Shown in pieces: positions 18,784 to 50,758 of a stretch of 51,585 nt of DNA. Position 1 is the stretch's first letter, and each line of letters begins with the position of its first letter. The notes beneath the pieces were generated by a model. The model was not told the DNA's origin. It saw only the letters and a list, made by a program, of their open reading frames with translations, and ran no database searches. Source of the DNA: Bacteroidales bacterium (GTDB lineage: Bacteria > Bacteroidota > Bacteroidia > Bacteroidales > P3); the NCBI GenBank assembly GCA_017454015.1, contig JAFTDW010000044.1, positions 1 through 51,585 of the forward strand, given 5' to 3'. Position numbers and translations under genes: made by a program.

Positions 18784-19842
18784 CTAATGTCTAAAGGTCT
18801 TGTTAGGTTTGTATCCAGAGAGTTTGAGGATTTTTTGTGAGTCGGGTTCTTTCAGCAGGTCGGCGATGTCGCAGTTGTTGCGTTTCATGTATTGATTTAC
18901 AATCTGCCAGCCTATATATTGTGTTGTCCTGGGTGCTGAGTTCTTGAATGCGTTGGTTTTAGGGGCGTCGTCGATAAAGTTGTGAAACCGCATGTAGTCG
19001 GTCTCATAGAGTAATTGGTTGTTGACGAAGTAGGCCCAGATGTCCTGCTCGTTGCCGCGCACCCATTCATATTGCTCCTTGGTGTAGCGTATCTTGATGC
19101 TGTCAGGTACCGAAGGGAGCACTCTGTCTGCAAAGTACAACGCCTTGCCTTCGCATATCATGTAGTCGAGCAGTGTGAGTGGCTGCTTGGGTGTGGTTAT
19201 GTGTTGTTTGGCAATGGCTATAATGCAGTCGGAGAGTATCTGCTGGCTGTTGCACATGTTGACAATGAAGAGGGGCAGCCCGAAATATCCGAACTTGGCA
19301 AACGATGGCAGTGCATAGATATCCAGTGCAATACGCAAAGAGCTGTCTTGTGCCACCACGCGGCTGTCGTAGTCAAAATCGGCAAGCACGCAGGTGTATG
19401 CGTTTTGGTAATTCACCACGGGGCAGAGCTCATGGGCTCGTTGCAGTGCAGGGAATAGTTGTTTCTCAAGCCAGCCCAGATCTCTATAAAGTTGTTGTAC
19501 GGTGTCGTATATCTCTCTTACTGTGGGGTCTGCCACAAATCCGTAGATAAGCTGCATGTAGTCTTCGTCGTCGGGGCGTATGCGCAGCGGTATGTCGGGG
19601 TGCTTCTGCAGGGTCTGGCGCAATCTCGACTGTATGTCAATGTCGGATTGTTCAAAGATAATCTGCTCAAAGCGTGTTATGTGCTGCCCGTCAGACGCTT
19701 GGCCGGTGTCGCTGTTGTTGCGGCATCCGGCAAGTAGTATGACAGCGAATAATGGCAATAGCGCCCACCTTGACAGATGGGCGCTATGTCCTGTATGTGA
19801 TTTGTTATTCGCTGTCCATGTTTTTATTTCATAGGTGCTCAT
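18784..19842 (-). CDS. gldB: GldB-family gliding motility lipoprotein
   Basis: GldB is a lipoprotein needed for gliding in Flavobacterium and is conserved across many Bacteroidota, gliding or not. Here a lipobox (AVILLAGC, C40) is preceded by an unusually long ~25-residue polar N-terminus. The body matches the family: a repeated Asp/Ile-rich N-terminal half, DLGWLEKQLFPAL, the LPLFIVNMC segment, MICEGKALYFADRVLP, EQYEWVRGNEQDIWAYF and the RTTQYIGWQIVNQYM C-terminal block. 352 residues. It lies 11 bp after the DUF349 gene and 5 bp before the LTA-synthase-like gene. The true start may be later; a hairpin lies within the first codons. Confidence 0.85.
   Translation of the reverse strand: MSTYEIKTWTANNKSHTGHSAHLSRWALLPLFAVILLAGCRNNSDTGQASDGQHITRFEQIIFEQSDIDIQSRLRQTLQKHPDIPLRIRPDDEDYMQLIYGFVADPTVREIYDTVQQLYRDLGWLEKQLFPALQRAHELCPVVNYQNAYTCVLADFDYDSRVVAQDSSLRIALDIYALPSFAKFGYFGLPLFIVNMCNSQQILSDCIIAIAKQHITTPKQPLTLLDYMICEGKALYFADRVLPSVPDSIKIRYTKEQYEWVRGNEQDIWAYFVNNQLLYETDYMRFHNFIDDAPKTNAFKNSAPRTTQYIGWQIVNQYMKRNNCDIADLLKEPDSQKILKLSGYKPNKTFRH
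19760..19785. other. Perfect inverted repeat within the start of gldB
   Basis: AGCGCCCA (19760-19767) and TGGGCGCT (19778-19785) form an 8-bp GC-rich stem around a 10-nt loop. In the assigned gldB frame it falls at codons ~20-28, directly before the lipoprotein signal. It could be an mRNA structure acting on gldB translation or a remnant of a terminator. No T-run follows. Confidence 0.5.
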
Positions 19843-30299: not shown

Positions 30300-30307
30300 T
30301 ATATTTG
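30300..30307 (+). promoter_or_regulatory. Probable -7 box of the giant surface protein gene
   Basis: TATATTTG fits the TAnnTTTG consensus and lies 43 bp before the ATG at 30350, in an AT-rich stretch. A TTTG occurs at 30264-30267, but the spacing (32 bp) is too long for a -33 element. Confidence 0.5.
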
Positions 30308-30349: not shown

Positions 30350-33300
30350 ATGGTTCACAATTACAGTAAATTACAGTCATTTGCAGTGGTCTCGGCTTTA
30401 GCCCTTGTTTTGACCATGTCGGTTCCTGCTGCGTCGCAGACGGTAACAACATTGCAAGACTACAATTTCAGTACAGGTGTCGACGCCTCCAAGTGGATAC
30501 CGCTCACTAACCCGACAGTTATCAGGGCAAACACTTATGAAGACGACTACGGCTATTCTTTGCAGCCAATAGGCTTTACCTTTAATTTCGTTGGGGTTGA
30601 TTACACCCAGTTCTCAACAAAATCCAATGGTGAAGTAAAACTGGGACCACCTCAGTGTTCAAATTATAGCCCGTATTCTCAGCCTTTCAGCTCTTCCAAT
30701 GCCAATAGCAATGCGCCTAAAATCATAGGTATAGGCAAAGATTTGGCTGTTACAAACGGTGGTTATATCCGGTATCAACTTTTTGGAACTGCGCCGAGCC
30801 GTATTCTTGTAGTGGAGTTTAAAATGCCGCATCATTATAGTCCTTCTTCAAATACACCTGATTTGAATTGGGAAGTCCAACTTTTCGAGACTTCCAACAA
30901 GGTTCAGATTGTCTATTCCAGTGTTGTGCCGAGCACATTGCCAACACCAGGTTTTCAGGTCGGCATGTGTATTGATGCCAACGATGTTGTAACAGTTAAT
31001 CCAATAACCCACACCATTTCTTATGGTACAACATCAACGGTATATCCTAACGTGTGGCCAGGTGCCAACCGCTACTACACTTTCGAGGTCAACTGTCCTG
31101 CACCTACCCAGTTCACCGCCTCCAATGTCACCCACAACTCCGCCGACTTCTCGTGGGTCGAGATAGCCGGTGCCACCCGTTGGCGCTACACCGTAACTCC
31201 GCCGCTCCCCGGCGTCACATATCCGCGAGCCCAGAGCCGCAACCCCTTCACACTTACAGGCCTTCAGCCCAACACCGACTACACAGTGTGCCTCGAAAGC
31301 CGCTGCGATCCAACAGCCTATCCAGCCAACAGCTACAGTGAGCCGGTATGCGTAACATTCCATACCGACTGCGCCCCTATAGCAACATCCAGCCTGCCCT
31401 ACACCGAGAATTTCGACAGCTACGACACCGTGCCCAACGCCACACTGGGCCCATGTCTGTATAAGTACTTCTACGACCACGGCACTTACACCCGCGACAG
31501 CTTCCCCTATCCCGTGGCAAATCCCCATGCCGGCAACAGTGGTCGCTCCATGGTTTTCTACAGCGAGGGACAGCAGATAACCAGCTACCTCGCTCTGCCG
31601 ACTTTTGCCGACCCCGTCAACACACTCGCTGTAACTTTCGACCTCTACCGCTCCACAATGGCCTACTTGGACTATGGCTCCATTCAGGTTGGCGTGATGA
31701 CCGACTACAGCGACCTCTCCACCTTCACCCCCGTGCAGGTGGTGCAGATTCCGGCAGCCGGAGAGTGGCGCACATACGAGGTGCCCCTGCGCGCCTATAC
31801 CGGCGCCGGCCGCTACATAGCGCTGCGCGCCACTGCAGGCGACAGCAACTACGTCTATCTCGATAATCTGAGTGTCAACATCGCCCCTACCTGTACTGCT
31901 CCGCAGGACCTCACGGTATCCACTCTGCTCGACAATTCCTTTATCCTCACCTGGACCGAGCGCGGTACCGCAACCCTCTGGGAGGTGGAGTACGGCTCTC
32001 GCGGCTTTGCACGCGGAACAGGTACGCGCCGCATTGTCAATACCACAAGCTGCCAAATCACAGGCCTCAATGCCAGCACCGCCTACGATGTCTATGTGCG
32101 TTCTATCTGCGGCGCGGGCGATACCAGCAACTACAACAATCGCACCGTAACTACGGCCTGCGCTCCCATACCACATAGCGCACTGCCATACGTTGAGCCG
32201 TTTGACAGCTACCCTGCACGCCCGCTCACTCGTATCGACCCATGTTGGCACACCGGCACCAGCTATCCTTCGGGCTTCCCGACGCGTGTGACGACCACAG
32301 CAACCATTCCAAGTTATAACGGCAGCTACTCTTACCAATTCAGGGGCGATGCCAACAACTACAGCTATGCAGCCCTGCCTCTCTTTGCCGACAATGTCAG
32401 CACACTTATGTTGTCGTTCATGATGCGCAAGGCTCCTGGCAGCAACTCCGACAACGGTGTGGTGCGCATAGGTGTCATGAGCGACCCTACCGACTTCAAC
32501 ACCTTCCAGCTGGTGCAGACGTTGAGCGTTACATCGAGCGACTGGGAGTCGTTCGACGTGCCGCTCACAACCTACAGCGGCAGCGGACGCTACATCACCA
32601 TCGCCTCGGGCAATACCGGCTACGGCAATACATATATCGACAATGTGGAGGTCTCGTCGGCTCCCAGCTGCCTGCGCCCCCAGCTTACCAGCCTCAGGGC
32701 ATCGGCTGTGCTTGGCAACAGTGCCACCATCACATGGCGGCAGCTCAACCGCACCAACATGTGGTATGTCGAATACGGCATATCAGGAGCCCCCTCTTAC
32801 ACCTATCGCGCCATGAGCGTCTCCACACCGGTGGCCTACCTCACAGGGCTCACGCCCGACACCACCTACACCGTCTTGGTGCGAGCCATCTGCGGCTACG
32901 GCGACAGCAGCGCCGCCGTATCTTTCAACTTCCGCACGGGCTGCACCCCAATACCGCACAGCCAGCTGCCTTTTGTCGACGGTCTGGAGAACTATGCAAA
33001 TAACCCCCGTCCCACGCCATGCTGGCACTACGGTACCAACCAGGCTGCCAACTCTCATCCTAAAGTCGAGAACCGCGCAGCCATAACAGGTAACAGGGGC
33101 TTGACATTCCTTGCCTCCGACACGCTGTACAGCTACGTCACATTGCCCGAGATAGCCCCCCCGCTGCAAAACCTTCTGGTCTCTTTCCAGGTCAAACGTG
33201 AACTTTTGCCATCTTCAAGCAACAGCTCACACATTTATCTGGGCGTGATGCCCGACCCCGAGGACTACAGTACCTTTATACGTGTTGCCGACATAAATGA

Positions 33301-36300
33301 TCATACCACCACTGCTCAGTCCTATTCCATGATGCTCAACCGCTACAGCGGTCCGCAGGGCTGTATAGCCATAGTCTCTGCCGACGCTTTGCGTGGCGGA
33401 GCTCTCAACTACACCTTTATCGACGACATACGGGTCGAGCCGCCACGCTGCCCAATGCCCGACTCGCTCTTCGTGTCGGTGGGCGACAACTACGCCGATG
33501 TGTCGTGGACCGAACTCGGCAGCGCCACCCGTTGGGCTGTGGAGTACGGTCAACCTGGTTTCGCCCGCGGCACGGGCACACGCCGCGTGGTCAACGACAC
33601 CAGCTACCGTATCACCGGCCTTACGCCAGCCACTACCTACGACATCTATGTAGCCTCCATCTGCGGGCCGCGCGACACAAGCACCTACCGCTTATACACC
33701 TTTACCACGGCATGCGCTGAAATCGACAGCAACCGCATGCCGTATACCGAGAATTTTGAAGGGTACACATCGTCAGATCCGCGCCAATATTATACAATCA
33801 CAATTCCCTGTTGGCACCGCGGTTACTATCTGCCGTCTACTGGTTCGTTGGTTTACGATGCCAGCGCATATTATCCGCAGATAGCAGACAATGCCGGTTG
33901 CAACAGCCGGAAAGGCTATGTGCTCATCTCGGGCAACGATGGTAGCTATTCCTATTTCACATTGCCGCTCTTCCAGCTCAACGTCAACCGTCTGATGATC
34001 GAGTTCAAGTGCAAGTCGTCTGTCTCCACCTCCTCCCCCTTGGTAGTCGGTCTCTCGCCCGACCCCTATAACCTCGCCAACTTCGACACCGTTAAAGTCT
34101 TCCGAAATCTCTCCATGCAGTGTCAGGACTATATGTTCTGCATACACCGCCATTCCCCACAGAACCGCTATGTGGTGTTTATCTCCGACCGCCAGCGTAC
34201 CGATGCAGGCAACCAGACTATCACAATCGACGACATCCGTGTGAGCCCCAAGCCTACCTGTCCTGGCATTATCGACATAAACCTCGTGTCGCGCTCCTAC
34301 CATAACGCAATAATCACTTGGGACGACCAGCCTGACATTATCGACGGTCACCCTGCATCCTATGAACTCATAATAAACAATTTTACCGGTATCCAGCGAG
34401 ATACTTTCTATACCTCCAACCGCTATTTCGCATTCTCCAACCTCTATCCCAACGACAATTACACCGTAAATATTCGCGCCAATTGCAGCAGCACAGACAA
34501 TGGCGCATGGGCTACCTTCCAATTCCACACACAGGACAACCTCTGCCACTCCGAAATAGCTACCCCGACCAACCCCACACAGTACCTCCCCGTCAACAAT
34601 CCAGCCAACTACTCGTTGACGCAACAGCTCTATCGCCCCAACGATGTTGGGGGGGCAGGCTATATCACCAATATTGCATTCTACAGCACAGCGGCACAGT
34701 CCGCCAAGACCAACTGCGTTGTCTATATGGGGCACACCACCGACACCACTCTCGACCGCATGCTCCCGCTAAGCGGAATGCAGCAGGTCTATAGCGGTCC
34801 GCTCACCACGCTGGCAGCCGGTTGGGACACTCTCATTCTGTCAAATCCCTTTGCCTACAACGGCAGTGAGAGCCTCGTGATAGCTGTGGTCGACAACTCT
34901 GGCGTCAGCGACCCGTCGGGCGCCAACTGGTACTCGCATCCGGCAGTCAATATGTCGCTCTCCTGCTACAACAACAATTCGCCATACAACGGTGCCCCCT
35001 CGGGTACTGTCAACCGCCACAACTTCCGCAGCAACATCAGGTTTATCTTCAACTGCTACACTCCTCCCTGTCTGCCTCCCAATGTCTATGTGGCTCGTGT
35101 CACCGCCGACACCGCCGAGATAGTGTGGGGCGCTGGCAATGTCGAGACGGCTTGGAATGTTGACTATCGCAAGCGTGGCGAGACCAACTGGGTCACCGCC
35201 GCCTCGGGCACCACCACGCGGGCTTGTACCATCGCAGGACTCGACAGCAGCTGCACCTACGATGTGCGTGTGACCTCGCTCTGCTCCAACAACAGCTCCT
35301 CGTCGGTCATCTCGCGCTTCAACACCCTCTGCCGCCCAATTCGCACTTTGCCCTTCGTTGAGAATTTCGAGAGGTACGATGCCGACACGGCAGCCACGCT
35401 CGACCCCTGCTGGACTAAGTACTATGTCGACGGCGCCACTTTCAGGCAGACCAACTATCCCTATCCCACCTCTGACTACGCCTATTCGGGCTCCAATTCG
35501 CTCTACTTCTTCTGCAACGGTGTCAACCGCTACAGCTACGTGGCACTGCCCGAGTTTGGTATGCCCGGCAACCAGTTGCAGGTCTCCTTCAAGGCTTTCC
35601 GCAGCAACAACGAGAACGCCAACGGCTACATCTCTCTCGGTCTTATGTCCAACCCCGACGACTTCTCCACTTTCCGTACCCTCCAGACATTCCATCTTGA
35701 GAACAGCGGCGTCTGGACCTCGTTTGACCTCGACTTCGCCAACACTGCCGACACTAACCATTTCATCGCTTTTGTTGCCTATGCCACATCGGGCAACAAC
35801 TACATCCGTATCGACGACATAATGGTTACGCCGACTCCCACATGTCCCCGCCCAATCAACTTCAATGTCTTTAATATAACCGACACTTCGGCCACCTTCA
35901 CATTCATGGATCGTGCCGGCGCGTCGCGCTGGTCGCTCGAATACGGTCCCGCGGGCTTTACCGAGGGTACGGGTGCAGTGGAGTACATCACCGCACTCCC
36001 CGCCACCCTCACCACGCTGAGCCCCAACACCCACTACGACGTCTATCTGCGTGCTCACTGCGCTGTCGACGACAGCAGCACCACCACCCTCATCTCATTC
36101 ACCACCGAGTGCAGCGGCCTCACGCCTGCCGACTTGCCCTATCGTGAGAATTTCGACAGCTATGCCTTTGGTGGTACAGCCTCCATCAGCCCCTGCTGGA
36201 AGAAAGGCACCAACTACACCTCCGCCACCAACCTCTACCCATACCCCGAGCAGATGTTGCGCGGTTCCGACAGCACCAATGCCCTCTTCTTCTCTGGCTC

Positions 36301-39300: not shown

Positions 39301-42300
39301 ACAAAGCATCTCCCCCTGCTGGTACAGGGCCTACTACAATGGTACCTCGTTTATCACCACCTCCTATCCCTATCCCTCTGCCGACTGTTCCGTGGTGACC
39401 GGTGGCAAGAGCCTTGCTTTCTACGCAGTCTCCAACACCACCACACCGTCGGCGGCCACCTACAGCTATGCTGTGTTGCCGCTCTTCGAGAGTCCGCTCT
39501 CCGATCTCTCCTTCTCCTTCAAGGCTCTCCGCGGCTCCGAGCAGGAACCCGGCCGCCTTGTGGTGGGTGTCATGTCCAACCCCACCGACGCTTCGTCGTT
39601 CGACACCATAGGCTTTGCCAACATCTCGCAGATTGGCCAGTGGGAGGAGTTCTACTTCACCTTCGACAGCGTGCCGTCCAACAAGCGCTACATAGCTATC
39701 TTCAACCACGGCAACGGCATGGCTTCGAGCCTTGTCTATGTCGACGAGGTGCGTGTCCGCAGGGCATCGCCATGCGCCGACATATACAACCTCCACGCCG
39801 ATGCGGTCTCTATGCGCTCCATAGTAATATCGTGGAATGTCTCCTCGGAGGCCAACGTCTCCAGCTACAGGCTGCGTCTTATCGACCAGTCGGGCTCCGA
39901 TCGTTCATTCTCCTCCAACCAGCGCAACTATATCTTCGACAACTTGGTCGAGAATTCGCAGTACACCATACTGGTGGCGGCCTACTGCGGCAGCAACGGC
40001 CCGTGGGATACCCTCAGGGTGCGCACAGGCTACTGGCCCTGCGTTACCGAGGTTGGCACAGCCGACACTTCGTCCGATGTCTTGCCCGTTTCGTTCAACA
40101 ACTACTACTCGGCTTCGCAGCAGCTCTATCTCGCGTCCGAGATTGGAACGGCAGGCACCATCAACGCTATTGCCTACTACTATATCGGCTCTTCGCCCAT
40201 GACAGCCAAGACCAACTGCTCTATCTACTTTATGCCCACATCGCAGCAAAGCATCAACTCCTTCACCGGCCTCAGCAGCGCCCAGCTGGTCTACAATGGC
40301 AGCATCAACGCCACGACTCATGGTTGGCACCGCATTGAGTTCTCGTCGCCTTATATATATAATGGTACCGATAATATATTAGTAACCGTCATCGACAACT
40401 CTGGCGACGCCGAAGGCAATGTGTCGGCCTTCCGTACCACTCTGGTCAACGGCAGGGCTCTTTACGCTGTCTCCGATACCGGTGCACTGCCAAGCATTCA
40501 GCGTGTGCCCGTAATGCACTCCAATCAACTCAACCAGGTGCAGTTTGTCAAGGCTTGCACCGCCTCGGGCTGCGTGGCACCCTCGCTCGCAGTGCTCTCC
40601 ACCGCCACCGACAGGGTGTCGCTCGCTTGGACCCGTGGCAACAGCGAGTCCTCGTGGCGCATCGAGTATCGCAATGCCGACGACACTGTATGGACCACCT
40701 TCAACCCCAACATAACACAGACCACCGCCACCGTCACAGGCCTCACGGCAGGTACAGACTACCAGTTCCGCGTGCTGGCCAACTGCACAGGCGCCCAGGC
40801 CGCCGACACTGCAACGGCCTCCACCACTTGCTCGCCAATCGCCTCTCTCCCGTATAGTGAGAATTTCGACAGCTATAACTCCGCCGTCGATGCACGCATC
40901 AGCGGCTGCTGGGATAAGTATTTCTTCAACGGCGCCACCGCGTCGACCAACAACTACCCCTATCCCACGTCGGCATTCCGCTACGGCTCCAGCGGCAACG
41001 CGCTCCGCTTCCATGCCAGTGCCACGGAATATAGCTATGCCGTCCTGCCCGAGACCAACGTGCCCGCCTCGTCGCTCGCTGTGTCGCTCAAGGCTTTTGC
41101 CACCACTCAGGGCGAAGGCCGCTTCAGCATAGGCGTCATCACCGACCCCGCCGACCTCGCCACCTATACCCCCTGCGGCAGTTTCCAGGTCTCCGAAGTC
41201 AACCAGTGGCAGTCGTTCAGCCTCTCGCTCTCTGCGGCGGGCAATGGCCGTATCGCAATAGTTGCCGCCACAGGCGCTGAATGCAATCTGTATATCGACA
41301 ACGTGGTTGTCATGCTTGCAGCTTCTTGCCCGGCACCCGACTCGCTGGTGATAGCAAGTGTCACCTCCAATAGGGCCACCTTCTCGTGGCGCGAGAATGG
41401 CACCGCCCGCCAGTGGCGCGTAGAGTATGGCCCGCAAGGCTTTGTGCCCGGCACAGGTACGCCGACAACAGCCTCCACCAATACCAACTTCACCCTGAAC
41501 GGGCTCTCCGCCAATACCGTCTACGATGTATATATCCGCGCCCTGTGCGCCACCAACTCCTACAGCGCCCCCTTGGCAGGTTCTCTCTACACCGACTGCT
41601 CGGCCATAACCGCTGCCGACCTGCCCTATAGCGACAACTTCGACAGCTATGCCTCTAGCGCCGATGCCGACATCAACACCTGTTGGCGTCGCGGCGGCAA
41701 TGTGGCAGGTGGCGTCAAGCCCTACATCACCACCACCGCCGCCTCCTCGGGTGCCAATGCGCTCTGCTTCGACGGCTCCGACAGCCGCTACTGCTATGTC
41801 GCTCTGCCTCGCTACGACGGCACGGTCTCTCAGGTCGGACTCTCTTTCGACCTCTACCGTCCTGCCGACGGCTTGCACAACGGTACCGTTCTTGTTGGTG
41901 TCATGACCGACCCGTCCGACCCCTCTACCTTCCAGCTTGTCCGCACAGTCTCCGCGCTCTACACCGGCCATTGGGAGACCTACGACGTGGAGTTCGCCTC
42001 CTATCGTGGCACAGGCCGCTATGTGGCAGTATTCGCCAACAACAGCTCGGCTTCGCAGGCTTCTGCCATAGTCGACAACATGCAGCTGCGCCTTACCCCG
42101 TCCTGCACGCGTCCCACCAGCCCTGTGATACTCTCCGCCTCGGCTCACAGCGCCACCGTCAGCTGGGTGCAGCAGTATGGCAGCCCCTCTTCGTGGCAGA
42201 TAGAGTACGGTCCCACGGGCTTCACTGTCGGCTCGGGTACCATAGTCACTTCTTCGACTACAAGGGTCAACCTCACGGGTCTCAGCGCCGACTACGACTA

Positions 42301-45300
42301 CGATGTCTATATCCGCGCCGTCTGTGGCTCCTCGTCGACCAGTGAGCCGGCCTATATACGCCTAAGCACACAGTGCGGCACCATAGGCCACAACGAGCTG
42401 CCCTACACCGAGAATTTCGATGCCTATGCCGCAGGCCCGACAGTTCCTATCAGCCCCTGCTGGTACAAGGTCTACTACACCGGCGTGAGCCAGTTCAACT
42501 CCTATCCATATCCCACCGGCGACGTGGCCTCCTCGGGTCTCCGCAGCCTCTGCTTCCACAGCACCGCAAGCTACTACAGCTATGTGTCGCTGCCAGCTTT
42601 CGAGGACAGCCTCAAATCCCTTGCCGTCAACTTCAAGCTCCGCAAGACCTCGGCCGCCAATAGCGGCAAGCTGCTCGTCGGCGTAGTGCCCGCCCCGTCC
42701 GACTATGCCAACTTCGTCCTCGTCGACTCCGTGGCTCCGCGTCCCGACAACATCTCGGGCTGGCAGCGCTATGCCGTCTATCTCGACAATTACACAGGTC
42801 CCGAGGGCTTCATCACCCTGCTCTGCGACCGTGGTGAGGACAACACTCTCTATGTCGACGACCTCAATGTCGATGTTATACCGAGCTGCCCGCAGCCGCA
42901 GCATTTCACGGCTACCACCGGCGCCGACACCGCCAACCTCCATTGGACCAACTACAACAACTACAGCTCTCTGGTGCTCGAATACGGTTTCCGCGGCTTC
43001 CAGCCGGGTACAGGTATCCGCGTGCCGCTTGCCGCCACCGATACAGCGGCGACGCTCCGCAACCTCCGCGAGGGTACCGACTACGATGTCTACCTCCACG
43101 CTGTCTGCTCGGCGACCGACAGCAGCCTCGACGCCTACGCCTACTTCACCACCGACTACATCATCTGTCCCATGCCGATAGTTTCAACCTTCGAGGATTC
43201 CACCGACAACGAGCGTTGGCATTTCTCCAACACTCTCTCGGGCAACCGCTGGGTTGTAGGCTCCAACGCCCATAACGGCGGCGGCCACGGGCTTTATGTC
43301 TCCAACAACGACATCGTCAATAACTATAACACCGATACCGCCACTGCTGTCTATGCATGGCACACCGTCTACCTCGATGCCCCCGGCACCTACCTTGTCA
43401 ATTTTGACTGGCGTGGGGTAGGAGAGGGGACCGACGACTACCTGCGCGTATTGCTTGCCCCGATGAGCGACCCGCTCGTCGCTGGTGAACTCTACAGCGG
43501 CCTTACGGCTGTGACTACCCCCACAGGCTGGTACGCTCTCGACGCAGGCCAGACACTCTCCGGCGCTCAGCAATGGCAGCATGTCGACCTCCGCGCCCAG
43601 GTCAACGCCTCGGGCAACTACCGCATCATCTTCGCTTGGGTCAACAATGCCACAGGCGGAACCCAGCCTCCGGCAGCTGTCGACAACCTGCTCTTCCGTC
43701 GCATAACCTGCTTCGAACCCACCAACTTCCAGGCTGTCTCGACCTCCGCCAACTCGGCGACTCTCAGCTGGACGCCCGGCGCCAACGAGCCCCAGTGGCT
43801 TATCCATGCCGTGCCTCTCAGTGGCGGCTACACCGACCTTTGGCAGACGGCTAACACCAACTCCAACTTCGTCCTGACGGGTCTTATGCCAAGTACTCTC
43901 TACGAGGCCACCATCTACAGCTACTGCGGAGGCTCCGACACCTCGTTTGCCGGTCCCACCATACGCTTCACCACCTCGTGCGGCACCCTCGTGGCACCCT
44001 TCTACGAGAATTTCGAGAGCTACAACCACGGCATCTCGGCCTCGCTCTCCGCTCCCTCGGAGTACCCCAACCACGACCTTATACCTTGCGCCGACTACAT
44101 CAACATGAGCCGCTCGCGCGCCTCGTTCCCGCATGTGTTTATCACATCCGCACCGCAGGCTATCGACGGCAAGTCGCTGCTCTTCGTCTCCAATAGCGAG
44201 ACAACGCCGGTCTATATGGTGTTGCCGCGTTTCGACGTGCGCCTCGACTCGCTTAGCATTGTCTTCCAGTATCTCAACACCGACACCTCCACGGGTACCT
44301 TCACCCTCGGCTACATCCCCTCCAACGGCACCGTTGCCGACTTTGTCGCTCTGCGCCAACTGCCGCGTAGCGCCACGGCACGCCGCCTCTCCTACAACTT
44401 CAGCAATGCTATGCTTACCGATACCAACAGCCGCATTGCCATCCGTCTGGTCTCCAATAACCCTGCGGCCTACAACTTCATCGACAACCTTGCCGTTACC
44501 CTCGGCCCCGACTGTCGTCGCGTAGTGGCCATCAATGAGTTGTATGCAGGCGACTCTGTCATAGCCCTCGACATAACTTCCAACGGCGGCTCCGAATGGC
44601 TCGTCGAGTATGGCGCCAGCGGCTTCACACGCGGCAGCGGCAACTTCCTCCGCACTGCCACCACAAGTCCGGTTATCAGTGGACTCTCGCCCGATATGAG
44701 CTACGATTTCTATGTCTACACTCTCTGTATGACCGGCGACACCGCTGAGCACCTCATGGCTACGTTCAGCACTCTTTGCAGCCCGTCGGCAACGCCCTTC
44801 GCCGAAGGGTTCGAGTCTCCACAGGCTCCTCATTGCTGGTTGGCTCCTTCGGTGCCAGGTGCTGCGTGGAGCTTCCGCTCCAGCCTGGGCTCTGTGCGTC
44901 CTCACGACGGCAGCTACATGGCCTGCTTCTCCGCCTCGCAGCCCGACAGCTCGGCAATGCTCATCTCGCAGATGGTCGACATCACCTCCACCCAGAACCC
45001 CACTCTTGTATTCTGGTATGCAATGCCTTCGGCAGCAAGTTCAGATAAGTTCAACGTCTACTATCGCACCACCTACACCTCGCCGTGGACGCTGCTCGAC
45101 AGCCTCACGGCTGCAGTGCCCAACCAATGGGAACGCGTTGTGCTGTCGTTGCCCTCCGCCTCGCTGCGCTACCAGATAGCCCTCGAAGGTGTGGGCGCCA
45201 ACGGCGGCGGCATCTGCGTCGACGGCCTCTGGATCGACACACTGCCGTACTACAACATCCATGCCGTGCCCAACGATTCGGTGCGTGGCTATATCTCCGG

Positions 45301-48300
45301 CACGGGTCGCTACAGCCTCGGCCAGCGCGTCACGCTCACCGCAGCGCCCAACTACGGCTACAACTTCCAGTACTGGCCCGACAGCATCAACACCAACCCG
45401 GTGCTCTCCTTCTTGGCCGATTGCGACACCACCTTCTCGCCGGTCTGCTTCGGGTTGAACCAATACAGGCTCACGGTGCTCTCCGATGTCGATGTCTCCA
45501 ACAACCCGCTGGGTGTGGTGACAGGTACCGGCACTTACGACTACCTCACCGTGGTGCCTGTGACTGTAACGCCGGGCATTGGCTACTACTTCAGCCACTG
45601 GAGCGACGGCGTGGGAACCGCCTCGCGCAGCGTGACACTCCTCTGCGACAGCACCATCACGGCCTACTACGACACCATACCTACCTTCTTTATCAGCGTT
45701 TTGCCGAACTACAACGATCGAGGCACCACCACGGGTGGCGGCGCCTACCGCGAGAATGTGGTGTTCAATATCTCGGCAACGCCTAACTACGGCTACCACT
45801 TCACTTCGTGGAGCGACGGCGTGACAACCAACCCGCGCACCGTCACCGCCGTGGGCGACAGCCTCTTCGTGGCTATCTTCAACAAAGACACCTTCTCCGT
45901 CACCGTCAACAACCTCAACCCGGACCGTGGCACCGTCTACGGCTCCACCACGGCACTCTATCTCGACACCGTGGTCATCGGTGCCGTGCAGGCCTCCGGC
46001 TACCACTTCTCCGGTTGGACCGACGGCGACACCACCAACCCGCGTGTCTTGGTCCTTGAACGCGACAGCACCTTCACGGCAACTTTTGACTACAACTACT
46101 ACAACATCACAACCTCCTCCAACGACAACGTTATGGGCTACACCCTCGGCGACACCCTCGCAGCCTATCTCGACACCGTACAGCTTACCGCAGTGCCTCG
46201 CTTTGGCTACCGTTTCGTCTGCTGGAACGACAGCGTCACCGATTCGGTACGCTTCGTAACTGTCATGCAACATGCTCATTACATCGCTAACTTTGTTCTC
46301 GACACATGCCATGTCACCACCTTCAGCGCCGACACGGTCATGGGCTACACCATAGGTGACACCACAGCCTACTATTTCGATACCGTAACTATCGAGGCAA
46401 TAGCTAGATACGGCTACAACTTCGCCCGCTGGATGGATGGCGACACCAACAACCCGCGCCGCGTGGTTATGATGGGCAACATCACCTATGTTGCTTATTT
46501 CTACAGCGAAGGCTATACACTCCATACTGCGACGGATAACTCTATGATGGGTTATACCTCGCCCGACACTACGGCTCGCTACCTCGACACCGTCTATCTC
46601 GAAGCCTACCCCAACTATGGGTTCCACTTCACCCACTGGAGCGATGGCGACACCAACAACCCGCGGTGGCTCGTACTCACCAGCGACACCTTCCTGACTG
46701 CTTACTTCGACTATAACCTCTATCATGTCACCGGCCTCGCCTCCGATCCACACATGGGTTATGTCGACCGCGACACCGACGACTATTACCTCAACACCGT
46801 CTGTATCACTGCTGTGGCAGGTCGCAATTACCACTTCCTCTACTGGTCCGATGGCGACACCAACAACCCGCGCTGCTTCACCCTCCTCTGCGACACCACC
46901 TTCACAGCCGTATTCGATTATGACCTGCTCTCCGTTGTGGCTGCTACTCAGGATTATTCCATGGGCCGCGCCTATGGCGACACCCTGGCACCCTATCTCT
47001 CCGAGGTGCCTCTGCGTGCCGAGGCCAACCGCGGATACTACTTCGTGGGCTGGAGCGATGGCTACATCACCAACCCGCGCACTCTTGTCGTTACCTCCGA
47101 CATTGTCATAGTGGCTATGTTCCAACCCAACCGCTACACCCTCTCCACAGCCTCTGCCGACACCTTGCTGGGCTACACCTTGGGCGACACCGTTGCCTAC
47201 ACCGCTTCGGTGTTGACTGTCTCGGCTACAGCCCGTTCGGGTTATCGCTTCAGCCACTGGAGCGACGGCAACACCCGCAACCCGCGTCAGGTTATCCTCT
47301 ATAGCGACACCCTCTTCACCGCTCACTTCGTACCCGACGACTACACGCTTCTTGTCGCTATCGACGACACGACCCACGGCTATGTCGCCGGCGACACTAC
47401 AGTGCCATACCTCGGCTACGCTACAGCCTATGCCTATCCGCACTATGGCTACCACTTCAGCCATTGGAGCGACTACTCCGTGGCTAACCCCCACACTATA
47501 CAGCTCCACGGTGATACCACCCTCACCGCTTACTTTGTCCCTAACGATTATACAGTCAGTACTATAGCCGATACTATGGGCTATGCCATAGGCGACACTA
47601 CGGCACCCTATCTGTCGCAGGTGACTCTCACCGCGGTACCGGCCTACGGCTACCGCTTCGTGGCTTGGAGCGATGGCGACACCAATAACCCGCGCGTCAT
47701 CACCTTGCTCGGCGACACCACGTTGACTCCCACCTTCACCGAAGCGCTCTTCCATGTCACCGTCACCGCCGCCGACCCCGTCATGGGTCTCGGCTCGGGC
47801 AATTCCAATAACTACTACCGTAACACCCATGTTATCATGGCTATAGCCAACCCGGGCTACGTCTTTACACATTGGCAGGATGGCGACACCAACAACCCGC
47901 GCACATTCACCGTAATGGGCGACACTACCTTCGTGGCTTACTTCATCGGTGCAGTCTACTCGCTGACTCTCAGGGCCAACGACCGTACTCTGGGCTCCGT
48001 CTCGGGTCCCTCCAGAGCGGCTCACGGCGACAATGTGTGCCTCACGGCTACTCCTACCGCTGGCAACCGCTTTGTCCTCTGGGATGACGGCTCGTTCAAC
48101 CCCAACCGTTGCATCACCGTCCTGTCCGACACCACAGTGACAGCTATCTTCGGAGGTCAGGGCATCTACATCGCGGCTCTCCCCGACAACAATGCCCATG
48201 GCTATACTTCTGGTTCGGGCCTCTATAACCTTGGTGACACGGCAACAATCATGGCTACAGCGGCTTATGGCTATGTCTTCACATCCTGGAGCGATGGCGA

Positions 48301-50758
48301 CAGCACCAACCCGCGCCGCGTGGTGGCCACTGTCGACACCCTCTATACCGCTCTCTTCACTCCTGTCGACCTCACCCTCTCGGTGAGCTACGACTCACTG
48401 CAAGGCTTCGTCTCCGGCGAGGGCCAGTATCCCTACGGCACCCTTGTGACGCTCACCGCGCAACCCTACATCGGCTACCACATCGCCGGCTGGGACGATG
48501 GCTCCACGGCTCTCGTCCGCCAGTATCGCCTCCTCTCCGACACTACCCTGCGCGTGGTGTTCCACCGCAACAGCTATGTTCTCAGTGCTTTGGCTACCGA
48601 AAGCACCACCGTTGCAGGCGCCCCCACCACTGTCGTGGGCTCTGTGCTGCGTGGCAACGGCGGCCAGCTCGCCTCGGGCAACTACCTCCACGGCGATTCC
48701 GTGATGCTCTTTGCTCAGCCAGCCTATGGCTGTCAGTTCATTGGCTGGGCCGATGGCTCCACTCTCAACCCGCGCCCCTTGGTCATAACCTCCGACACCA
48801 CCGTCGTGGCTCTCTTCGAGCGTATCACACACTCTGTCGTGGTTCGCACCTCCGATGCCAATATCGGTACAGCCTCTGGCACAGGTCTCTTCGGCTATGG
48901 TGTCTACGACACTCTTGTGGCTACACCGGCGGCAGGGTGCCGCTTCCTCTCGTGGGATGATGGCGACACTACCAATCCGCGTGTCATAACAGTCATCGCC
49001 GACACCGTCTACACAGCCCTCTTCGAGGCTCCGCTCTACACCGTCAACGTAGTGGCAGGGCAGGGGAGTGGCTCCGTCTTCGGCGGTGGCACCTATCGAG
49101 CTACAACACATCTTACTATCAGCGCATTACCCAATACGGGCTACCATTTCGACTACTGGCACGACGGCGACACTAACAACCCGCGCTTCATCACCGTCTC
49201 CGCCGATACCACCTACACCGCCAACTTCTCCGTCTCGGTATTCACCGTAGCGCTCCACGCCGCCTATGGCACTGTGTCGGGTGCTGGCACATACCCCTAC
49301 GGCTCGTTGGTGACAATAGCTGTTGCCCCCTATGCTGGCCATGCCTTTGTGGGTTGGAGCGATGGCAACACCACCAACCCGCGCCAGTTCCGCATAACCT
49401 CCAACATGGATCTCACCGCCATCTTCGATGCTCCGATGGCTCATCTCGACGCCTCGGTCAACAACCCGGCGTGGGGCTCCGTCAGTGGCGTGGGCTTCTA
49501 TCCCGTTGGTTCCATGGTTAATATCGATGCTGTCGCCGTCCGTGGCAGCCACTTCAAGCACTGGCTCGATGGTGTCCATACCCCCTCGCGTACCATCACG
49601 CTTGAGGGCGACACGGTGCTCTATCCCGTCTTCGCTCCCGACACTCATGTCATCATGGTCTCCACCAACACCCCCGAGCGTGGCTCTGTCTACGGCAACG
49701 GAGTCTATGTCTTTGGCACGTCGCCCGTCATCAGCGCCACAGCCAATGCAGGCTACCGTTTCCTCTCATGGGACGATGGCAATACCGACAACCCGCGTGT
49801 CGTCTCCGCCGACGCCGACTACCGCTACGTGGCCTCCTTCGTGACCCTCGACTATCTGGTCACCGTCCGCTCCTCCGATATCAACCGCGGCTCGGTATCC
49901 GGCACGGGTGTCTACCCCTACCTTTCCTCGGTGATTATCTCCGCCAACGCCATGCCGCATTACCACTTCACGGCATGGAACGATGGCAATACACAAGCCT
50001 CCCGTACCGTCACGGTGCTCTCCGACGTGGTCTACACCGCCAGCTTCGAGGCCAATGACTATAGCGTCACCGTCACTCCCTCCAACGCCTCCTATGGCTC
50101 TGCCTCGGGTAGCGGCACCTACGCCTACGGCACCTTGGCAACCATTACTGCCACCCCACGCTCAGGCTACCGCTTCGCAGGCTGGAGCGATGGCAACCGC
50201 GACAACCCGCGTCAGCTCCTCGTTACTGGTAACATGCAACTTACGGCCATGATAGAGCCTATTTACTTCACTGTGGCACTGAGCACCTCTTCGGCTCATG
50301 CCGGTCAGGTGGTAGGCTCAGGCACCTATAGCTGCGGCCAGCGTGTGACCATCATGGCTATCGCCAACCAGGGCTACCGCTTCGACGGCTGGAGCGACAA
50401 CCAGACCAGCGACACCCGTACCTTCACCATCTCCTCCGACGTGATGCTCACGGCCTACTTCAGCCCCTTGACGTCGCCGTTAGGCATCGACGATGTGGCA
50501 GCCGACACCACCGACAACCTCTTCCATGTCTATTCCGTCGATGGACAGATAAGAATCATGGTATCAGGTGCTTCAGAGCCTTTGGCAATCCAAGTCTACA
50601 ACAATGCTGGTCAGCTCCTGCAGACCTACAACACCAATGCCGACGGCCACGCCGATCCCACGGCAACCTATCGCTACACCTACACGCCGCAGGCCTCTGG
50701 CATATATATAGTGAAAGCCACCGGCCGTCCCGCCAAGCGTGTGGTAGTGATAAAATAG
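30350..50758 (+). CDS. Giant T9SS-exported multidomain surface protein (6,802 aa)
   Basis: One uninterrupted frame. Residues 1-~30 are a signal peptide (cleavage near PAASQ). ~31-248 is a beta-rich N-terminal domain. ~249-4965 alternates fibronectin-III modules (about 18, most with WxVEYGxxGF and TxYDVYVR) with about 16 jelly-roll blocks of the choice-of-anchor/cleaved-adhesin type, each opening near LPYxENFDSY...CW. ~4967-6705 holds 25 InlB-B-like repeats of ~70 residues (GYxFxxWSDGDTNNPR). ~6706-6802 is a T9SS type A sorting domain ending GIYIVKATGRPAKRVVVIK. This architecture fits a long adhesin exported by T9SS and anchored or released at the surface; cleaved-adhesin blocks recall gingipain/HagA of Porphyromonas. 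Ligand unknown. The gene stands alone, divergent from the ywqK-like gene and followed by a strong terminator. Confidence 0.93.
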   Translation: MVHNYSKLQSFAVVSALALVLTMSVPAASQTVTTLQDYNFSTGVDASKWIPLTNPTVIRANTYEDDYGYSLQPIGFTFNFVGVDYTQFSTKSNGEVKLGPPQCSNYSPYSQPFSSSNANSNAPKIIGIGKDLAVTNGGYIRYQLFGTAPSRILVVEFKMPHHYSPSSNTPDLNWEVQLFETSNKVQIVYSSVVPSTLPTPGFQVGMCIDANDVVTVNPITHTISYGTTSTVYPNVWPGANRYYTFEVNCPAPTQFTASNVTHNSADFSWVEIAGATRWRYTVTPPLPGVTYPRAQSRNPFTLTGLQPNTDYTVCLESRCDPTAYPANSYSEPVCVTFHTDCAPIATSSLPYTENFDSYDTVPNATLGPCLYKYFYDHGTYTRDSFPYPVANPHAGNSGRSMVFYSEGQQITSYLALPTFADPVNTLAVTFDLYRSTMAYLDYGSIQVGVMTDYSDLSTFTPVQVVQIPAAGEWRTYEVPLRAYTGAGRYIALRATAGDSNYVYLDNLSVNIAPTCTAPQDLTVSTLLDNSFILTWTERGTATLWEVEYGSRGFARGTGTRRIVNTTSCQITGLNASTAYDVYVRSICGAGDTSNYNNRTVTTACAPIPHSALPYVEPFDSYPARPLTRIDPCWHTGTSYPSGFPTRVTTTATIPSYNGSYSYQFRGDANNYSYAALPLFADNVSTLMLSFMMRKAPGSNSDNGVVRIGVMSDPTDFNTFQLVQTLSVTSSDWESFDVPLTTYSGSGRYITIASGNTGYGNTYIDNVEVSSAPSCLRPQLTSLRASAVLGNSATITWRQLNRTNMWYVEYGISGAPSYTYRAMSVSTPVAYLTGLTPDTTYTVLVRAICGYGDSSAAVSFNFRTGCTPIPHSQLPFVDGLENYANNPRPTPCWHYGTNQAANSHPKVENRAAITGNRGLTFLASDTLYSYVTLPEIAPPLQNLLVSFQVKRELLPSSSNSSHIYLGVMPDPEDYSTFIRVADINDHTTTAQSYSMMLNRYSGPQGCIAIVSADALRGGALNYTFIDDIRVEPPRCPMPDSLFVSVGDNYADVSWTELGSATRWAVEYGQPGFARGTGTRRVVNDTSYRITGLTPATTYDIYVASICGPRDTSTYRLYTFTTACAEIDSNRMPYTENFEGYTSSDPRQYYTITIPCWHRGYYLPSTGSLVYDASAYYPQIADNAGCNSRKGYVLISGNDGSYSYFTLPLFQLNVNRLMIEFKCKSSVSTSSPLVVGLSPDPYNLANFDTVKVFRNLSMQCQDYMFCIHRHSPQNRYVVFISDRQRTDAGNQTITIDDIRVSPKPTCPGIIDINLVSRSYHNAIITWDDQPDIIDGHPASYELIINNFTGIQRDTFYTSNRYFAFSNLYPNDNYTVNIRANCSSTDNGAWATFQFHTQDNLCHSEIATPTNPTQYLPVNNPANYSLTQQLYRPNDVGGAGYITNIAFYSTAAQSAKTNCVVYMGHTTDTTLDRMLPLSGMQQVYSGPLTTLAAGWDTLILSNPFAYNGSESLVIAVVDNSGVSDPSGANWYSHPAVNMSLSCYNNNSPYNGAPSGTVNRHNFRSNIRFIFNCYTPPCLPPNVYVARVTADTAEIVWGAGNVETAWNVDYRKRGETNWVTAASGTTTRACTIAGLDSSCTYDVRVTSLCSNNSSSSVISRFNTLCRPIRTLPFVENFERYDADTAATLDPCWTKYYVDGATFRQTNYPYPTSDYAYSGSNSLYFFCNGVNRYSYVALPEFGMPGNQLQVSFKAFRSNNENANGYISLGLMSNPDDFSTFRTLQTFHLENSGVWTSFDLDFANTADTNHFIAFVAYATSGNNYIRIDDIMVTPTPTCPRPINFNVFNITDTSATFTFMDRAGASRWSLEYGPAGFTEGTGAVEYITALPATLTTLSPNTHYDVYLRAHCAVDDSSTTTLISFTTECSGLTPADLPYRENFDSYAFGGTASISPCWKKGTNYTSATNLYPYPEQMLRGSDSTNALFFSGSTNNYSYAAMPSYSGNIRDLMVSMKLYKPSTSGRYGYLRIGVMTNPADFNTFQEVATIYAVNAATWENHEVSLAAYTGTGRYIAFASDNISSCLTYVDDIVVDRAPSCMRPYNVYATAVTGNSVSLTWSDNAYSPLGWVVEVGRSGFMPGHGMKLGTTTQSITVNGLAPQTNYDVYVYTRCNGTDTSAASQLYSFTTGCGAIRHSDLPYTETFDSYATGAGASINSCWTKSYYNGLFTSRNYPYPVSTNAYTAPNSFLFYAGDSTYYAYAILPEFEDAVSALQLRFKMQTNDLAEGTLKVGVTNSRSGNAQDFAGFTPVATIACTEADAWQEKTVNFSSYGGTGYIMLLYRPSSSGANVFVDDLVVEPATSCNAPDALYAESQETSATVHWTPAAGSTVTRWLVEYGQQGFLPGMGTRTTVSNDTSYTITQLAAGSFYDVYVSALCGTRDTSPSLLVSFSTQCPALPHSALPYSDDFESYATGTAAGINPCWQRYSNYTTGNYPYATAAVAYAGFQSLAFVADTQHYCYVVLPRFVDTVTSLELSFRLRRSAVGMSGTVVVGVMDVASQRSTFHPYQSCTPAGVGTDFEEVTVDFSAYYATGHQIALMMYEGADNAAFVDNIVVRTIPNCQRPVNIVVTDLQSNQAGLAWDRGTASSWRVEYGRSGFTRGHGIIVNTSSPSISITGLQPSSTYDLYVRSTCSASDTSYFSHITFTTSCAAIAHADLPYSESFEGYGTTYSSIINQCWYKQYFDGTVFTTSGYPHAAVVAYSGSRSLEFRSNTADGTFGYAVLPEFIDSVNQLELSFRMSRATVTSASRIKVGVITNPTDITTFHLVAELCSPQTSSSFDLYNVSFAPYSGPNGRIALLADLDAGDNNLYVDDVVVSAVDICPQPANIVISATSTTASVSWTAIGSTSHWTVEYGPSGFVYGTGTRVTDSTGSVLLTQLQPSTTYDLYIYTLCSSGVNSTPLHTTFTTACAEIATVSLPYIENFDSYVAGVGQSISPCWYRAYYNGTSFITTSYPYPSADCSVVTGGKSLAFYAVSNTTTPSAATYSYAVLPLFESPLSDLSFSFKALRGSEQEPGRLVVGVMSNPTDASSFDTIGFANISQIGQWEEFYFTFDSVPSNKRYIAIFNHGNGMASSLVYVDEVRVRRASPCADIYNLHADAVSMRSIVISWNVSSEANVSSYRLRLIDQSGSDRSFSSNQRNYIFDNLVENSQYTILVAAYCGSNGPWDTLRVRTGYWPCVTEVGTADTSSDVLPVSFNNYYSASQQLYLASEIGTAGTINAIAYYYIGSSPMTAKTNCSIYFMPTSQQSINSFTGLSSAQLVYNGSINATTHGWHRIEFSSPYIYNGTDNILVTVIDNSGDAEGNVSAFRTTLVNGRALYAVSDTGALPSIQRVPVMHSNQLNQVQFVKACTASGCVAPSLAVLSTATDRVSLAWTRGNSESSWRIEYRNADDTVWTTFNPNITQTTATVTGLTAGTDYQFRVLANCTGAQAADTATASTTCSPIASLPYSENFDSYNSAVDARISGCWDKYFFNGATASTNNYPYPTSAFRYGSSGNALRFHASATEYSYAVLPETNVPASSLAVSLKAFATTQGEGRFSIGVITDPADLATYTPCGSFQVSEVNQWQSFSLSLSAAGNGRIAIVAATGAECNLYIDNVVVMLAASCPAPDSLVIASVTSNRATFSWRENGTARQWRVEYGPQGFVPGTGTPTTASTNTNFTLNGLSANTVYDVYIRALCATNSYSAPLAGSLYTDCSAITAADLPYSDNFDSYASSADADINTCWRRGGNVAGGVKPYITTTAASSGANALCFDGSDSRYCYVALPRYDGTVSQVGLSFDLYRPADGLHNGTVLVGVMTDPSDPSTFQLVRTVSALYTGHWETYDVEFASYRGTGRYVAVFANNSSASQASAIVDNMQLRLTPSCTRPTSPVILSASAHSATVSWVQQYGSPSSWQIEYGPTGFTVGSGTIVTSSTTRVNLTGLSADYDYDVYIRAVCGSSSTSEPAYIRLSTQCGTIGHNELPYTENFDAYAAGPTVPISPCWYKVYYTGVSQFNSYPYPTGDVASSGLRSLCFHSTASYYSYVSLPAFEDSLKSLAVNFKLRKTSAANSGKLLVGVVPAPSDYANFVLVDSVAPRPDNISGWQRYAVYLDNYTGPEGFITLLCDRGEDNTLYVDDLNVDVIPSCPQPQHFTATTGADTANLHWTNYNNYSSLVLEYGFRGFQPGTGIRVPLAATDTAATLRNLREGTDYDVYLHAVCSATDSSLDAYAYFTTDYIICPMPIVSTFEDSTDNERWHFSNTLSGNRWVVGSNAHNGGGHGLYVSNNDIVNNYNTDTATAVYAWHTVYLDAPGTYLVNFDWRGVGEGTDDYLRVLLAPMSDPLVAGELYSGLTAVTTPTGWYALDAGQTLSGAQQWQHVDLRAQVNASGNYRIIFAWVNNATGGTQPPAAVDNLLFRRITCFEPTNFQAVSTSANSATLSWTPGANEPQWLIHAVPLSGGYTDLWQTANTNSNFVLTGLMPSTLYEATIYSYCGGSDTSFAGPTIRFTTSCGTLVAPFYENFESYNHGISASLSAPSEYPNHDLIPCADYINMSRSRASFPHVFITSAPQAIDGKSLLFVSNSETTPVYMVLPRFDVRLDSLSIVFQYLNTDTSTGTFTLGYIPSNGTVADFVALRQLPRSATARRLSYNFSNAMLTDTNSRIAIRLVSNNPAAYNFIDNLAVTLGPDCRRVVAINELYAGDSVIALDITSNGGSEWLVEYGASGFTRGSGNFLRTATTSPVISGLSPDMSYDFYVYTLCMTGDTAEHLMATFSTLCSPSATPFAEGFESPQAPHCWLAPSVPGAAWSFRSSLGSVRPHDGSYMACFSASQPDSSAMLISQMVDITSTQNPTLVFWYAMPSAASSDKFNVYYRTTYTSPWTLLDSLTAAVPNQWERVVLSLPSASLRYQIALEGVGANGGGICVDGLWIDTLPYYNIHAVPNDSVRGYISGTGRYSLGQRVTLTAAPNYGYNFQYWPDSINTNPVLSFLADCDTTFSPVCFGLNQYRLTVLSDVDVSNNPLGVVTGTGTYDYLTVVPVTVTPGIGYYFSHWSDGVGTASRSVTLLCDSTITAYYDTIPTFFISVLPNYNDRGTTTGGGAYRENVVFNISATPNYGYHFTSWSDGVTTNPRTVTAVGDSLFVAIFNKDTFSVTVNNLNPDRGTVYGSTTALYLDTVVIGAVQASGYHFSGWTDGDTTNPRVLVLERDSTFTATFDYNYYNITTSSNDNVMGYTLGDTLAAYLDTVQLTAVPRFGYRFVCWNDSVTDSVRFVTVMQHAHYIANFVLDTCHVTTFSADTVMGYTIGDTTAYYFDTVTIEAIARYGYNFARWMDGDTNNPRRVVMMGNITYVAYFYSEGYTLHTATDNSMMGYTSPDTTARYLDTVYLEAYPNYGFHFTHWSDGDTNNPRWLVLTSDTFLTAYFDYNLYHVTGLASDPHMGYVDRDTDDYYLNTVCITAVAGRNYHFLYWSDGDTNNPRCFTLLCDTTFTAVFDYDLLSVVAATQDYSMGRAYGDTLAPYLSEVPLRAEANRGYYFVGWSDGYITNPRTLVVTSDIVIVAMFQPNRYTLSTASADTLLGYTLGDTVAYTASVLTVSATARSGYRFSHWSDGNTRNPRQVILYSDTLFTAHFVPDDYTLLVAIDDTTHGYVAGDTTVPYLGYATAYAYPHYGYHFSHWSDYSVANPHTIQLHGDTTLTAYFVPNDYTVSTIADTMGYAIGDTTAPYLSQVTLTAVPAYGYRFVAWSDGDTNNPRVITLLGDTTLTPTFTEALFHVTVTAADPVMGLGSGNSNNYYRNTHVIMAIANPGYVFTHWQDGDTNNPRTFTVMGDTTFVAYFIGAVYSLTLRANDRTLGSVSGPSRAAHGDNVCLTATPTAGNRFVLWDDGSFNPNRCITVLSDTTVTAIFGGQGIYIAALPDNNAHGYTSGSGLYNLGDTATIMATAAYGYVFTSWSDGDSTNPRRVVATVDTLYTALFTPVDLTLSVSYDSLQGFVSGEGQYPYGTLVTLTAQPYIGYHIAGWDDGSTALVRQYRLLSDTTLRVVFHRNSYVLSALATESTTVAGAPTTVVGSVLRGNGGQLASGNYLHGDSVMLFAQPAYGCQFIGWADGSTLNPRPLVITSDTTVVALFERITHSVVVRTSDANIGTASGTGLFGYGVYDTLVATPAAGCRFLSWDDGDTTNPRVITVIADTVYTALFEAPLYTVNVVAGQGSGSVFGGGTYRATTHLTISALPNTGYHFDYWHDGDTNNPRFITVSADTTYTANFSVSVFTVALHAAYGTVSGAGTYPYGSLVTIAVAPYAGHAFVGWSDGNTTNPRQFRITSNMDLTAIFDAPMAHLDASVNNPAWGSVSGVGFYPVGSMVNIDAVAVRGSHFKHWLDGVHTPSRTITLEGDTVLYPVFAPDTHVIMVSTNTPERGSVYGNGVYVFGTSPVISATANAGYRFLSWDDGNTDNPRVVSADADYRYVASFVTLDYLVTVRSSDINRGSVSGTGVYPYLSSVIISANAMPHYHFTAWNDGNTQASRTVTVLSDVVYTASFEANDYSVTVTPSNASYGSASGSGTYAYGTLATITATPRSGYRFAGWSDGNRDNPRQLLVTGNMQLTAMIEPIYFTVALSTSSAHAGQVVGSGTYSCGQRVTIMAIANQGYRFDGWSDNQTSDTRTFTISSDVMLTAYFSPLTSPLGIDDVAADTTDNLFHVYSVDGQIRIMVSGASEPLAIQVYNNAGQLLQTYNTNADGHADPTATYRYTYTPQASGIYIVKATGRPAKRVVVIK
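34541..35060 (+). other. Inserted ~170-residue domain, first copy (giant gene)
   Basis: Residues ~1398-1570 (from CHSEIATP to FIFNC) form a domain unlike the FN3 or anchor blocks: a TQQLY strand, ITNIAFYS, a KTNCVVYMGHT strand, GWDTLILSNPFAYNGSESLV and VVDNSG. It matches the second copy near 40037-40557 position by position. I do not recognise a named family. Confidence 0.7.
40037..40557 (+). other. Inserted ~170-residue domain, second copy (giant gene)
   Basis: Residues ~3230-3402 repeat the domain at 34541: SQQLYLASEIGTAGTINAIA, KTNCSIYFMPT, GWHRIEFSSPYIYNGTDNIL and VIDNSG. It is bracketed by the same two atypical FN3 modules as the first copy, so the whole three-part segment was duplicated. 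Confidence 0.7.
45248..50463 (+). repeat. 25 InlB-B-like repeats in the giant gene
   Basis: Twenty-five consecutive ~70-residue units share a Y-x-V opening, GxxxGxGxY, a (V/L)xxTAxPxxGYxFxxW centre and SDGDTNNPR...DTTFTAxF ending, as in divergent InlB B-repeats (small beta domains). Two subfamilies are visible: units 4-13 mostly carry MGYxxGDTxAxYLDT in place of the G-x-V-x-G-x-G-x-Y stretch found in units 1-3 and 14-25. Count made by eye from the WxDG motif. Confidence 0.85.
50464..50758 (+). other. T9SS type A C-terminal sorting domain
   Basis: The last ~97 residues contain a linker (GIDDVAADTTDNLFHVYSVD), the IQVYNNAGQLLQTYN strand and the terminal GIYIVKATGRPAKRVVVIK. This is the Por_Secre_tail pattern that targets proteins to the type IX secretion system and is removed on export. 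Confidence 0.9.

Follow-up and report, generated by a model that had tools for sequence, protein, structure and literature searches.

The window, that is, the whole stretch of 51,585 nucleotides that was analysed, encodes a giant modular protein of 6,802 residues which, with a probability of roughly 60%, is a surface fibre exported as a type A cargo of the type IX secretion system (T9SS). The protein would be anchored to the cell with a stalk of InlB-B-type repeats near the membrane and an array of putative binding modules on the outside. It is a real protein, since a second species carries the same chain module for module, yet one of an already known kind. This explanation draws on the frame, the modules, a syntenic orthologue, the constraint on the sequence and the T9SS genes, all of them established below, and on the conservation of a promoter-like element. 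Counted against it are the scores of the tail, which lie under the cut-off of PF18962 and, when a long piece is searched, under that of TIGR04183, as well as the low conservation of this tail, the absence of significant matches between the J or B profiles and solved structures, and the rarity of the protein within its genus.

The gene and its modules

The gene occupies 30350..50758 of the plus strand as a single ATG-to-stop frame with neither an inner stop codon nor an N, and its product has, before processing, a mass of 739.7 kDa and a pI of 4.9. The longest open run in any of 50 equally long Markov sequences was 444 codons, against the 6,802 residues found here. An earlier sequence-only reading had described one frame of about 20.4 kb for 6,802 residues, and its coordinates, frame, and length were all exact. 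A promoter-like element, TATATTTG, lies at 30300..30307 (+), 42 nt 5' of the ATG, and is common to this gene and its orthologue; the -7 consensus of Bacteroidota is TAnnTTTG. Lysine makes up 0.8% and arginine 4.2% of the residues of the protein. Lysine is also scarce (0.6-2.5%) in 31 other fetched frames of more than 1,300 residues, and accounts for 3.4-9.3% of the proteins of eight neighbours in the window, versus the 0.8% of the giant protein.

The chain, all of whose features lie on the plus strand, opens with a signal peptide (30350..30436, residues 1-29), whose cleavage point was judged by eye, and an N-terminal domain (N; 30437..31099, residues about 30-250). They are followed by an array (31100..45253, residues 251-4968), delimited with Pfam, NCBIfam, and our own profiles, which starts with an FN3 module (F) and continues with alternating choice-of-anchor-J-like (J) and F modules, interspersed with two copies of a module termed S, each directly after a divergent F. 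The array then runs through a J-variant (43163..43714, residues 4272-4455; MAM at E=0.072, below cut-off), an F, a J and a further F to a closing MAM-type block (44780..45253, residues 4811-4968), matched by PF00629 at 40.7 and 41.5 bits (cut-off 26.4). Next come 25 repeats of the InlB-B type (PF18998; B; 45296..50482, residues 4983-6711), and finally the T9SS type-A-like sorting tail (T) with the stop codon (50483..50758, residues 6712-6802). As read by a broader profile, which does not detect the J-variant, the module string is NFJFJFJFJFSFJFJFJFJFJFJFSFJFJFJFFJFJ, then B 25 times, then T.

Profiles iterated from the protein itself count 14 J, 18 F (two of them divergent), 25 B, and two S; the 14 J, together with the J-variant and the MAM-type block, make up 16 J-like blocks. 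Pfam, NCBIfam, and these profiles reproduce the 18 FN3 modules, 16 anchor-type blocks, and 25 InlB-B repeats counted previously, the signal peptide being recognised by eye. The FN3 family PF00041 scores 138, 208.4, and 57.3 bits in three pieces of the array (cut-off 25), and NF038128 (choice-of-anchor J) 100.7 and 112.5 bits in the first two (cut-off 30), while 12 of the 16 J-like blocks, searched singly, match choice_anch_J of NCBIfam at E<=0.01. PF18998 reaches 557.8 bits over 24 stretches in Pfam, the twenty-fifth repeat being added by our own profile. The description of the array as cleaved-adhesin-like fared worse: PF07675 matches one of the 16 J-like blocks at E<=0.01, and its best score is 18.6 bits under a cut-off of 21.4. 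Searched against solved structures, a J-F-J profile retrieves fibronectin (E=2e-15), the J profile has no significant match (best E=0.014), the B profile has none at E<=1, and the J, S, and B profiles find nothing trustworthy outside the FN3 flanks. No catalytic domain scores above its cut-off in the Pfam search of the protein.

The N-terminal domain and the two copies of S are components that had been overlooked. The former has no match at E<=1 in Pfam or NCBIfam. S is a module of about 177 residues, whose copies in the giant protein (34538..35065, residues 1397-1572, and 40037..40567, residues 3230-3406, both located with our own profile) are 28% identical to each other and have no Pfam or NCBIfam match above the curated cut-off. 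DUF4082 matches the second copy at E=0.04, which is below its cut-off and a lead only, and PHROGs returns nothing at E<=0.01 for the N-terminal domain or the first S copy. At E<=1e-5, S has matches in 102 of the 247 genomes sampled from the order, which cover 80 of its 174 sampled genera, and the matching frames are often long (for example 6,091, 6,058, 5,701, and 5,407 residues). As S is both widespread and unnamed, many of the large proteins in the order could be explained by its structure and ligand.

A cysteine ends J in 151 of 152 cases where F follows and in none of four where B follows; F ends in one in 150 of 154 cases before J and in none of three before B. The cysteine at the end of F is, however, also present in 42 of 46 cases where S follows and in 30 of 37 where another F does, which speaks against a simple pairing rule. 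The orthologue conserves 38 of the 40 cysteines in F modules and 35 of the 46 in J modules. One disulfide per J and per F module may be formed.

Export, anchoring, and alternative fates of the protein

In the proposed mechanism, Sec would deliver the chain to the periplasm, the SprA translocon with PorV would move it across the outer membrane by means of the C-terminal tail, and the sortase PorU would cut off this tail and link the new end to lipopolysaccharide. The genome to which the window belongs encodes SprA (515 bits), PorV (394 bits, with the family found at three places), and PorU (921 bits), all above cut-off. A lack of T9SS genes, named in advance as grounds for abandoning the idea, therefore did not materialise, and T9SS export is plausible given a type-A-like tail and these three proteins in the same genome. 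The sorting tail had been called intact. It is real according to TIGR04183 (cut-off 23), which gives the final 103 residues 28.3 bits and the final 152 residues 26.9 bits, but it is divergent: on a piece of 1,852 residues the same model falls to 21.2 bits, and PF18962 gives 15.7-17.2 bits under a cut-off of 27. Of the 56 matches to PF18962 in this genome, 52 are above cut-off, and the tail of the giant protein is not among them. Profiles iterated from the tail recover those of other proteins with B repeats, along with some tails that PF18962 detects too.

Type A cargo is described as being anchored to A-LPS via PorU (PMC9143113). By the rules set out there for such cargo, the C-terminus would be located at the membrane, so that the 25 InlB-B repeats would form a stalk next to it, and the J/FN3/S array, together with the N-terminal domain, would be the outer, binding part. 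Some sixty modules of a few nanometres each, by our own estimate, would span about 0.2 micrometre when fully extended. In many extracellular proteins, FN3 modules are spacers and J-like and MAM-like modules are binders. The array may act as an adhesin, with glycans, plant fibre, or other cells as possible targets.

Within the stalk, the O-glycosylation motif D-[S/T]-[AILVMT] occurs 42 times, against 11.4 +- 3.1 in 1000 shuffles, and 36 times in the orthologue, against 12.4 +- 3.1. This excess was not taken to indicate glycosylation of the stalk, since the common descent of the repeats makes shuffles an unfair null and the D falls at recurring repeat positions.

Rather than being displayed whole, the array might be processed proteolytically following export, with the resulting adhesin fragments reassembling at the cell surface in the manner of the gingipain/HagA complexes of Porphyromonas gingivalis, although this is judged unlikely. 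HagA, RgpA, and Kgp are, as is proposed for the window protein, exported by the T9SS to the surface and built with repeated adhesion domains (PMC11500903), and the genome holds two C25 (gingipain-type) peptidases besides PorU, in frames of 1,310 (G000:C17) and 733 residues (G000:C56), both with a match to a type A tail, above cut-off in the former and below it in the latter. The arginine content of 4.2% would suit such cleavage, whereas 0.8% lysine leaves few sites for a lysine-specific protease. The J modules are only distantly like the Cleaved_Adhesin domain of these proteins (PF07675), which is nowhere above cut-off in the giant protein, and the alternation of FN3 with J, followed by a stalk of 25 InlB-B repeats, sets the window protein apart from them.

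Release from the cell, as a non-anchored adhesive or matrix-forming polymer, is a distinctly improbable outcome. Cargo of the T9SS can be either anchored or released (PMC9143113), and the divergence of the tail would be in keeping with the latter; PorU is nevertheless present, and the tail fits the model of type A, a class whose cargo becomes anchored in P. gingivalis.

It is very unlikely that the protein is an SprB-like gliding adhesin, moved along tracks by a PorP/SprF-type partner. SprB from Flavobacterium johnsoniae, an adhesin exportable by the T9SS, is likewise giant and repetitive, its 669 kDa being close in size to the window protein (PMC9143113), a GldB homologue is encoded in the window at 18784-19842, and type B cargo is present in the genome. 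The tail of SprB, however, is of type B (PMC9143113, PMC10994853), and SprB uses the carrier SprF, while the tail of the giant protein follows the type A model. The genome has 13 matches to the type B model (TIGR04131), of which ten are above cut-off; the tail of the giant protein is absent from them, and none lies on the contig of the gene (C25). SprB and HagA come nearest by their route of export; to each of these narrow families the window protein either does not belong or is not proven to belong. If the fibre is displayed whole, the T9SS would be exporting a type A cargo that exceeds SprB in size, a point of interest for the way in which the translocon copes with very long chains.

The orthologue and the constancy of the array

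A search of genome contigs with residues 1-345 led to one relative, JAGCUZ010000001.1, from the yak-rumen Bacteroidales MAG RGIG10147, which appears to be genome G011, where the gene lies on the minus strand of contig C4 from 21039 to 625 and encodes 6,804 residues. Upstream, five neighbours keep the same order: a MORN protein (51% identity), a CCA-type nucleotidyltransferase (80%), DnaG (68%), a sigma-54 regulator (75%), and an EPSP synthase (48%, incomplete at the end of the locus). This comparison covers the five upstream neighbours, three more neighbours in the window lying outside the fetched flank; in the locus of the orthologue, additional open frames are found between the CCA enzyme and DnaG.

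Both proteins have the identical module string, and their alignment comprises 4591 identical residues out of 6756 (68%), with a largest indel of nine residues. The substitution estimates are pN 0.210, pS 0.538, dN 0.246, and dS 0.95, giving a dN/dS of about 0.26, where dS is near saturation overall and infinite for the N-terminal domain. Identity by class amounts to 0.77 for N, 0.73 for F, 0.71 for J, 0.63 for B, 0.61 for S, and 0.60 for the J-variant with the MAM-type block; the tail is the least conserved part, at 0.38 (30 of 78 aligned residues). These data support the view of the array and the stalk as one constrained protein.

Within the window protein, the copies of a module share on average 31% identity for J, 31% for F, 36% for B, and 28% for S, whereas for all 14 J, all 18 F, 24 of the 25 B, and both S the best match is the copy in the corresponding position of the orthologue. 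The duplications therefore took place before the two species diverged, and no module has been gained or lost since in this pair. That the order of modules is constant between two species while J, F, and B copies average 31-36% alike is a new observation. The usual picture of repeat adhesins is one of rapid copy-number change; here, on the contrary, the array keeps number and order while its sequence drifts to 68%. Slippage is not expected between copies so dissimilar in DNA, so that a constant number alone is no proof of selection on length. It is a tentative and rather doubtful idea that every module is non-interchangeable in a display of fixed length and fixed order, in which each J, F, or S site would have a separate partner, the 25-repeat stalk would set an exact reach, and S would be a Bacteroidales-wide binding domain absent from family libraries.

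An assembly artefact with collapsed or wrongly joined repeats is hardly credible, even in a 63-contig assembly whose contig ends only 827 bp past the gene, because the longest exact repeat within the frame is 25 bp (11 of 20,371 distinct 21-mers recur) and a separate assembly holds a syntenic orthologue of nearly equal length with an identical module string. Neither the collapse nor the stop codons that had been envisaged as fatal to the reading appeared. At the end of the contig (50929-51534) are intergenic tandem repeats with units of 202, 97, and 17 bp and an exact repeat of up to 133 bp, which are the likely cause of the break in the assembly. The contig of the orthologue likewise stops 624 bp past the gene, and does not show the same sequence by eye. 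Elsewhere in the window, a gene on the minus strand that encodes a DUF349 protein (19854-22082) contains 24-bp tandem repeats (21724-22069).

Relatives and known systems

Residues 1-345 find matches at E<=0.001 in 71 of 99 genomes of relatives (57 of 59 within the genus, and 14 of 40 that belong to other families), part of which are FN3 matches, as this query includes an FN3 module. With residues 25-253 at E<=1e-60, two of 120 genus genomes remain, that of the window (G000) and G011, several of the others being incomplete. The protein accordingly does not count among the core functions of the genus.

For the wider survey, 37 regions were taken, non-randomly, for long frames with module matches, and 36 were scanned, yielding 90 frames of at least 400 residues in addition to the window protein, its orthologue, and G011:C65. 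Five other frames combine J or F modules with at least three B repeats and a related tail: G000:C51 (1,930 residues, 15 B) and G000:C47 (1,375 residues, 13 B, without J) from the window's own genome, G028:C41 (1,960 residues, six B), G043:C30 (2,254 residues, six B), and G041:C178 (2,246 residues, three B). The union of an array and an InlB-B stalk in one T9SS cargo, earlier held to be unusual, is consequently not unique. The module-built T9SS frames of the genus share the N-F-(J-F)-S grammar of the window protein, but the five with InlB-B repeats stop at 1,375-2,254 residues and 3-15 B, as opposed to 6,802 residues and 25 B. The window protein is thus an extreme case of this grammar. In a second set (G018:C24, G027:C36, and G021:C58), one module string extends as far as the contigs reach, with identities of 65.7%, 65.9%, and 97.3%.

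Long multi-domain T9SS cargo is also described in the rumen Bacteroidales Candidatus Paraporphyromonas polyenzymogenes, where it consists of cellulases and other CAZymes (PMC5831590), in contrast to the window protein with its lack of catalytic Pfam domains above cut-off. Proteins of more than 5,000 residues number 41,000 in UniProtKB (PMC11573180). Among titles and abstract openings of the open-licence literature, no paper was found on this kind of protein, including under choice-of-anchor J/FN3/T9SS or InlB B-repeat/type IX secretion.

The genome of the orthologue contains a still longer frame, at 31000-59000 of G011:C65, with 8,794 codons (8,734 from the likely ATG). This frame is rich in CDSYTW/AAGCDS repeats and has four J matches and a T9SS-type tail.
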